Under the pieces are notes generated by a model. It saw only the letters and a list, made by a program, of their open reading frames with translations. It had not been told where the DNA came from and searched no databases. Positions 33,534-34,965 of a stretch of 64,000 nt of DNA are shown here, piece by piece (position 1 is the first letter of the stretch; each line of letters begins with the position of its first letter). Origin of the DNA: an uncultured Bacilli bacterium. Its GTDB lineage: Bacteria > Bacillota_I > Bacilli_A > RF39 > UBA660. Location: the NCBI GenBank assembly GCA_949451605.1, contig CASTSB010000005.1, positions 65,096-129,095 on the forward strand. Reading direction: 5' to 3'. The position numbers were made by a program, and so were the translations under genes.

Positions 33534-34196
33534 TTATGGAGAACTGGTAAATGGAATTTCAATATCACCAAATTCTACTGTAAATGGACCATCTGCTTTT
33601 ATATCATTTTTATTATAAAAATCTATTGTTAGCCACAAATTAATATAATCACCAGGTGCGATATTAATAGGATTGGCTGGGTGCATACATGAACTAGAAC
33701 AATACATTATATCAATAGCTATATTTTTACAGGCTTCATTAACTAAAGATTCTGTTGTTCCTTCTCCAGCAGTACACTTTATTTTAGATTCCGTACTATC
33801 AATATTATTATAAATAATATCTTTAAAACACCAATAAGCATTTAATTTTCCTATATTATGTACATAAAAATCATAATAAACTCTTTGATGACCTTGAGTA
33901 AAATTAGCCGTAAAATTGCTAATATTAAATGAACCACTTGATTGAGTAATAACTGCTGGAGTACCAGTAGGTCTAACAACTCCAGAATTAGAATAATATT
34001 TTGGATTGATAGTAGAAGAAGATAACGAAGTTGATGAATCTGAAAAAGATATTTTAAAGTTATCTGGATTAGTATTAATAGTTGTAGTACTCCTAATCAC
34101 CAATGTATTAGAAAAAGTTGCAAGTCCTATTGATAAAGCCAATACAATAATTAAAATTAATACTAAGCTTAATTTTTTATCAATTTCTATTTTCAT
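33534..34196 (-). CDS. Exported TasA/camelysin-like protein
   Basis: 220 aa from ATG 34196 (GTGGTG upstream). N-terminal hydrophobic helix (LVLILIIVLALSIGLATFS) followed by beta-rich Ser/Thr/Asn sequence starting at TTTINTNPDNFKISFS. This head (long helix, short LATFSNT, then beta strands) resembles TasA/camelysin-type biofilm fibre proteins that need SipW. Five cysteines are present (WCFKD, IKCTA, EACKN, MYCSSSCMH), unusual for that family. No sipW adjacent. Its promoter region is a TA repeat. Confidence 0.55.
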   Translation of the reverse strand: MKIEIDKKLSLVLILIIVLALSIGLATFSNTLVIRSTTTINTNPDNFKISFSDSSTSLSSSTINPKYYSNSGVVRPTGTPAVITQSSGSFNISNFTANFTQGHQRVYYDFYVHNIGKLNAYWCFKDIIYNNIDSTESKIKCTAGEGTTESLVNEACKNIAIDIMYCSSSCMHPANPINIAPGDYINLWLTIDFYNKNDIKADGPFTVEFGDIEIPFTSSP

Positions 34197-34214
34197 ATCA
34201 TACACCACATTCTC

Positions 34215-34241
34215 ATTATATATATATATATATATTTACAA
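34215..34241 (-). promoter_or_regulatory. Promoter with TA-repeat spacer, candidate phase-variable
   Basis: On the minus strand TTGTAA (34236-34241) and TATAAT (34215-34220) are separated by 15 bases that are entirely the TA repeat. One more TA unit would give the ideal 17-base spacing. It lies about 20 bases upstream of ATG 34196. Confidence 0.5.
34217..34235. repeat. Dinucleotide repeat (TA)9
   Basis: Nine consecutive TA units plus one T. Longest simple repeat noticed in the window. Such tracts slip during replication. Confidence 0.9.
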
Positions 34242-34251
34242 GCTTTTGAGT

Positions 34252-34287
34252 ACAAAAAAAAGAAATTATTTTGCTTCTAATTTCTTT
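34252..34287 (-). terminator. Terminator after the YtxH-like gene
   Basis: Stem AAAGAAATTA/TAATTTCTTT (34259-34268/34278-34287), then T8 on the minus strand; overlaps the last codons. Confidence 0.8.
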
Positions 34288-34673
34288 AATACATCTTTAG
34301 TTACGTCAATTGCTTTTAATCTAACTTGTTCAGCAGCATCTCTTAAGATTGGTGAACCTTTTTCAATTGCAAGATCAACTAAATCTTGTGCTTTATTTTT
34401 TAATTGTTCTGCTTTTTTCTTAGCAATTGCTAAAGCTTTTTCTTTATCTAAATCAGCTAATTCTTCTTTTAATTCTTCTACTTTTTTCATAAATTCAGCT
34501 TTTACTTCATTAGCATCAATTTTTTTAATTTCATCTACTAACTCACCGAATTTTCTTTTTAAATCAGCTCTTGTTTCACTACCTTTTTTAGGTGCAAATA
34601 AGATACCTAAACTAGCACCAACTAATGCACCAGCAATAAACTTTCCTACACCTGACTTATTTTCTTTACTCAT
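34266..34673 (-). CDS. YtxH-domain protein
   Basis: 135 aa. The YtxH head KFIAGALVGASLGILFAPKKGS (22 residues; key part GALVGASLGILFAPKKG) forms one short membrane helix, followed by a Lys/Glu-rich helical tail. Often annotated as stress protein; function unclear. ATG 34673 lies inside the end of the upstream gene and GGATG precedes it, so the two are coupled, like ytxG-ytxH in Bacillus. Confidence 0.85.
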   Translation of the reverse strand: MSKENKSGVGKFIAGALVGASLGILFAPKKGSETRADLKRKFGELVDEIKKIDANEVKAEFMKKVEELKEELADLDKEKALAIAKKKAEQLKNKAQDLVDLAIEKGSPILRDAAEQVRLKAIDVTKDVLKKLEAK

Positions 34674-34965
34674 CAAAATCATCCTCCATATCATTAAATT
34701 TCTTTCTATTAAATACTTTTGAAACTAGAGAAGTTACACTTCCCACAATAGTATTTCCAATGCTTACTAAACTATCTGTTGTTTTATCAATTAATGAAAA
34801 AGCAACATTTAATGAATTAATCTTTTCTTCTACATTATCAATAACTCTATCTACTTTATCTAATATACCAATTAACTTTATTCCAAGTACCATCATAATT
34901 ATTAAAACTATAATTGCTGAAATATATAATACTATTGGCAAAAATACATTTAAAAATTCTATCAT
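34666..34965 (-). CDS. DUF948/YtxG-like membrane protein
   Basis: 99 aa. N-terminal membrane helix (about 8-32), then a coiled stretch LDKVDRVIDNVEEKINSL with regular Val/Ile spacing, typical of DUF948 proteins. Ends in an acidic tail. The pairing with a YtxH-domain protein supports the assignment. GAGGTGG precedes the ATG. Confidence 0.7.
   Translation of the reverse strand: MIEFLNVFLPIVLYISAIIVLIIMMVLGIKLIGILDKVDRVIDNVEEKINSLNVAFSLIDKTTDSLVSIGNTIVGSVTSLVSKVFNRKKFNDMEDDFDE

Follow-up and report, generated by a model that had tools for sequence, protein, structure and literature searches.

The promoter spacer of an exported-protein gene is filled by a TA-dinucleotide tract in the window, the 64,000-nt stretch from an uncultured gut Bacilli bacterium that was analysed here. 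Because the same device stands before many other surface proteins of related bacteria, this promoter is probably an on/off switch of the kind proven in mycoplasmas. Slipped-strand change of the spacer would be the simplest account of the comparative pattern, and the whole explanation, extended from the window gene to its relatives, is regarded as likely. We infer that slippage occurs in the population, that it affects transcription, and that cells profit by evading host immunity, phage or competitors.

The gene lies on the minus strand (33534..34196), as do all features of the window described below, and according to sequence, alignment and structure model it encodes a 220-aa exported protein from a family of about 27 paralogues. 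Its promoter sequence reads ...AAAAGCTTGTAAATATATATATATATATATAATGAGAATGTGGTGTATGATATGAAA... directly, and the longer reading of the promoter region is CTTGTAAATATATATATATATATATAATGAGAATGTGGTGTATGATATG. A -35-like hexamer, TTGTAA (34236..34241, matching TTGACA at 4/6 positions), is followed by a 15-nt spacer of alternating A/T throughout (ATATATATATATATA, 34221..34235) and a -10 hexamer, TATAAT (34215..34220); the TA tract thus sits between a -35 and a -10 that were assigned by sequence alone. The (TA)9 tract found by regular expression (34217..34234) covers the spacer and the first -10 bases. GTGGTG (34203..34208), 6 nt 5' of the ATG start codon (34196-34194), is a likely Shine-Dalgarno site, which reads GAGGTG in paralogues. 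Five paralogues have the -10 core TATAATWAGGATAATAGAGG in common, from which the window-gene version has diverged to TATAATGAGAATGTGGTG, and at the -35 position paralogues carry TTGCAA, TTGCAT, TTACAA or TTGTAT. The initial annotation had described TTGTAA and TATAAT on the minus strand with a 15-base A/T-only gap and (TA)9 in total; its coordinates and counts are correct, and the promoter stands shortly 5' of the ATG at 34196. Its further point, that one more TA unit would turn the 15-nt spacer into one of 17 nt, holds, and spacers in relatives are seen 2 nt apart, from 11 to 21 nt, with a mode of 17.

The promoter does not appear in the output of a generic promoter scan, because 15 nt falls outside the 16-18 nt range of spacers covered. 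Hexamers matching at four of six positions are equally common in shuffled sequence and carry no proof by themselves; the case is made by the tract together with its comparative context. None of 100 dinucleotide-shuffled versions of the window contained (TA)8, the second-longest TA run in the real sequence has 4 units, and under a Markov expectation (TA)9 should occur 0.002-0.006 times in the 1.33-Mb host genome (27% GC). Genome-wide, (TA)6, (TA)7 and (TA)8 are each found at just two sites, C5:99312 (the window tract) and C4:42376, and both of these sites with at least 6 TA units are promoters of one paralogue family. A chance origin of (TA)9 was rejected on the strength of the shuffles, the Markov expectation and this two-site restriction.

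The architecture recurs in related bacteria, which were compared using one genome per species. In the GTDB family, (TA)8 is present in 25 of 145 genomes, and when one tract per genome was examined without selecting for a -35, many tracts proved to be promoter spacers. Examples are TTGACA-N17-TATAAT 5' of a gene for an AYFS-type protein (L075), TTGACT with spacers of 21 and 15 nt 5' of two tandem lipoprotein genes (L088), and tract promoters preceding pilin-like genes (L083, L091) or genes for other exported proteins (L070, L087, L089); other tracts are not evidently promoters (e.g., L071, L073, L076, L081, L084, L085, L090). In 386 genomes of the family, TTGA was matched about 98 times directly 5' of (TA)7 and the reversed control 7 times, and TTGAC 5' of a TA tract gave 55 vs 0 in 395 genomes of the class, these totals being summed by hand with offset matches in one tract counted more than once. 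About half of the 55 class-level matches come from one complete genome, G494, which may be a Mycoplasma to judge by its size and gene style and in which many TTGACTTTA(TA)n...TATACT promoters were seen on contig C1 (L182, L190, L194); the sites read so far have lipoprotein-like paralogues downstream and spacers of 15 and 17 nt.

After deduplication by downstream sequence, 55 family sites with spacers of 11-23 nt were obtained, 34 of which have a start codon and a Shine-Dalgarno-like site downstream. Among these gene-linked sites, 17 nt is the modal spacer (11 cases), followed by 15 and 19 nt (5 each), 21 nt (4) and 13 nt (3); spacer length is odd in 30/34, not all of them independent. A hydrophobic N-terminus was found in 31 of the 34 downstream proteins, as against 19 among the 52 ORFs of the window (Fisher p 2e-7, p-values being guides only because paralogues are not independent). 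Two of the three exceptions are lipoprotein-like by eye, one of those having a mis-chosen start. Almost every gene-linked TA promoter in relatives stands before a gene for a lipoprotein, a pilin-like protein or another exported protein.

In sister promoters, the TA count changes more quickly than the flanking sequence. Near-identical promoters of relatives' paralogues differ in tract length: spacers are 15/17/17/21/17 nt in G027, with 0-3 differences over the following 30 bases; 19/11/15/19 nt in G181, where a 19 vs 11 pair has no change in the next 30; 21/15 nt in G131; and 13 vs 17 nt in G012, with 2 changes in the next 30. Not every set varies, as four paralogues in G300 stand at 15 nt and one at 17 nt. 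Paralogues in the host's own genome vary as well.

The G027 set occupies locus L124 (G027:C9:5800-15500), a tandem array of five AYFS-type exported-protein genes spaced at about 1.7 kb, in which a separate TTGACA-(TA)n-TATAAT promoter stands before every gene; the locus offers a compact model for read-based tests. At L140 (G181:C15:4000-12800), the four G181 spacers belong to four lipoprotein genes with one promoter type.

In the proposed mechanism, the TA tract would serve as a hypermutable promoter spacer, in which slipped-strand mispairing would gain or lose TA units and shift TTGTAA relative to TATAAT in 2-nt steps (13, 15, 17, 19...). Transcription of the surface protein would peak at spacers of about 17 nt and be low at other lengths; the 15-nt state of the assembly should be weak and the state with one more TA unit strong. 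Several family paralogues and unrelated surface-protein genes of related gut Bacilli have this device at various lengths, which would produce clonal heterogeneity of the cell surface. The poor -35 of the window promoter (4/6) and the frameshift in L024, the sole other long-tract paralogue, speak against a switch.

The main difficulty for the switch reading is posed by paralogues with short spacers (1-5 nt), which are the majority of the TA-type paralogues in the host genome. The own genome holds about 27 family genes plus fragments, scattered over many contigs and mostly 32-48% identical to the window protein. Several carry a TTGCAW-(TA)n-TATAATWAGGATAATAGAGGTGT block directly 5' of the start codon, which is common to paralogues despite widely diverged proteins, and TA-type promoters are spread across the poorly resolved protein tree with no single clade. 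Spacers of 3/5/5/5/15/15 nt were recorded, plus 1 nt (L027) and 13 nt (L019, half poly-A), both counted by eye. The second long tract of the genome, (TA)9 with a 15-nt spacer, is the L024 promoter; the spacer of L014 is 3 nt, and L005, L008 and L026 have exactly 5 nt each, with intact ORFs and far-diverged proteins. Short-spacer paralogues should be off if TTGCAA is their -35; the short forms could be stable alleles that have contracted, or in them the element could operate in another way. For L005, L008 and L026, and for the paralogues at 1 or 3 nt, the choice is between a frozen off state and a -35 other than TTGCAA.

Family members were not detected in five congeners by single-sequence search, and a single-protein search of named genomes yielded no relative; a profile search was positive for 65 of the 145 GTDB-family genomes, one congener with weak relatives among them. 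When 243 family genomes were searched for the TTGC...TATAATWAGGATA core, the matches elsewhere than in the host genome were all scattered and lacked TA tracts. By rpsD, the closest named records are MAGs of uncultured Bacilli, some of them from the gut of sheep and goats.

Three other explanations were weighed against a slippage switch. The promoter might be an ordinary, fixed AT-rich one, with the TA run an incidental expansion of the -10 region whose length has little effect or varies little. This would suit a genome of 27% GC, the short TA(4) spacing shared by several paralogues, and the fact that hexamers this good arise by chance, but every tract of at least 6 units in the genome is a family promoter, TTGAC shows a specific 5' association with tracts in many genomes, the control giving 0 matches, and TA number varies among copies while the flanks hardly do; a fixed promoter is considered unlikely. 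It is more doubtful still that the arrangement is a relic, i.e., that the family once had TA-switch promoters whose tracts are now decaying and whose genes are mostly silent or pseudogenes. Many spacers are indeed short, and four paralogues have internal stops, two have early frameshifts and two are fragments; on the other side, the ORF is intact in the window gene and in most paralogues, the cysteines and core residues being conserved, and (TA)9 would be long enough for present instability.

Lastly, transcription could start elsewhere, by read-through from the upstream gene or from another promoter, leaving the tract as a protein-binding or melting element. The upstream neighbour is a YtxH-family gene (PF12732, E 9.7e-18; 34266..34694) on the same strand. 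An A/T-rich hairpin followed by a T run overlaps the end of ytxH (34259..34287; -7.5 kcal/mol, z -1.7, which is weak) and could act as a weak intrinsic terminator between ytxH and the window gene; a GC-based scan detected no terminator. Although ytxH is kept in 5/5 congeners, it is followed by other DNA in the three with a readable flank, so a direct comparison of the TA tract at the window locus is impossible; wherever the flank can be read, then, ytxH stands without the window gene downstream. Most paralogues, moreover, are single genes, each with its own promoter-like site and RBS, and transcription from elsewhere is held to be very improbable. A bidirectional promoter like that of hif was rejected, as the other side would run antisense into ytxH, without a plausible gene.

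The product of the window gene is a surface protein by prediction only. A structure model with a mean pLDDT of 87.6, for which 22 sequences were aligned, has an N-terminal hydrophobic helix (residues 7-28) followed by a predicted beta-sandwich, and two Cys are invariant across the aligned family. The 220-aa product has no good match in Pfam, NCBIfam or PDB. A PDB fold search of the model returned no match at E<=0.001, solved TasA structures included, and the best fold matches are generic CBM/beta-sandwich proteins with TM-scores (query) up to about 0.26. The protein had initially been called TasA-like. It does share with TasA/camelysin a short N-terminal hydrophobic segment followed by a beta-sandwich and a 'GFAAFS' look at the helix end, but the TasA/camelysin profile (Peptidase_M73) matched neither the window protein nor 22 family members, and searches of Pfam, NCBIfam and PDB returned nothing at a useful score that would link it to TasA/camelysin. 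The label is therefore unsupported and membership in TasA/camelysin was rejected; for want of a profile or confident fold match, the product is best described as an anchored or secreted beta-sandwich protein that is not demonstrably TasA-like.

The mechanism itself is already known. In Mycoplasma mycoides, Vmm is switched on and off via dinucleotide indels in its promoter (Persson et al. 2002, as outlined in the review PMC2628566), and poly-TA tracts precede lipoprotein genes in the M. mycoides cluster, where switching was proposed (PMC3053259). The Vmm/Vmc-type lipoproteins resemble the present case in their promoter TA tract, surface paralogue family and AT-rich Bacilli/Mollicutes genome, and in tract lengths that differ between copies. 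In contrast, the window protein is not a lipoprotein and no profile hit suggests homology to Vmm; switching was shown for Vmm and is probable for the window locus, whose host belongs to an uncultured gut Bacilli lineage. In hifA/hifB of Haemophilus influenzae a TA repeat likewise sets the -35/-10 spacing (van Ham 1993, as quoted in PMC3899988), but hif has the bidirectional promoter of a pilus operon, while the window promoter is one-way and its gene stands alone. Vmm is thus the closer precedent. Repeat-length change in the promoters of a surface-protein family is also described for Mycoplasma hyorhinis vlp (PMC3899988). The vlp tract is homopolymeric A instead of TA, and the products are lipoproteins. 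Of the original proposal, the TA-slippage switch is probably right and well supported by comparison, through the recurrent architecture before exported proteins across the GTDB family and beyond and through TA differences between sister copies; the TasA-like label is not retained, and Vmm takes the place of hif as the precedent.

A search for an earlier report of TA-spacer switches in uncultured gut Bacilli found none, a weak negative with most subscription journals outside its reach, and the wider occurrence of such promoters in these bacteria appears to be undescribed. Variable-length tracts before many unrelated surface genes suggest that stochastic surface switching is routine in uncultured gut bacteria. 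It is somewhat short of an even bet that this uncultured, genome-reduced gut Bacilli family uses TA-slippage spacers as a general, repeatedly recruited device for randomising the surface, the targets being lipoproteins, pilin-like and AYFS-type proteins in relatives and a repertoire of roughly 27 members in the own 1.33-Mb genome. If true, commensals would employ a mycoplasma-like strategy of antigenic variation, TA-spacer switching having so far been shown in a few pathogens. Exact loci are now named for readout from existing metagenome reads.

Several further observations were made along the way. At L079 (G162:C2, about 1500 and 2562), two tandem paralogues have (TA)9-10 within the 5' part of their coding sequence, where it encodes Ile-Tyr repeats just after the start, a possible case of frameshift phase variation by TA repeat. 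In G300, some contigs start or stop near TA-tract promoters of paralogous exported proteins (L132, L134, L135), and TA repeats may interrupt assembly, so that further copies would go unseen. In the host genome, the early frameshift of L024 (G000:C4:41874-42275 and upstream) falls where the N-terminal helix ends, at a short run of T, with that of L028 close by. In the N-terminal helix, L015 (G000:C2:85410) and L022 (C4:78020) both have an in-frame TGA at one shared position that is Gly in other paralogues, which points to shared pseudogenisation or something odd.
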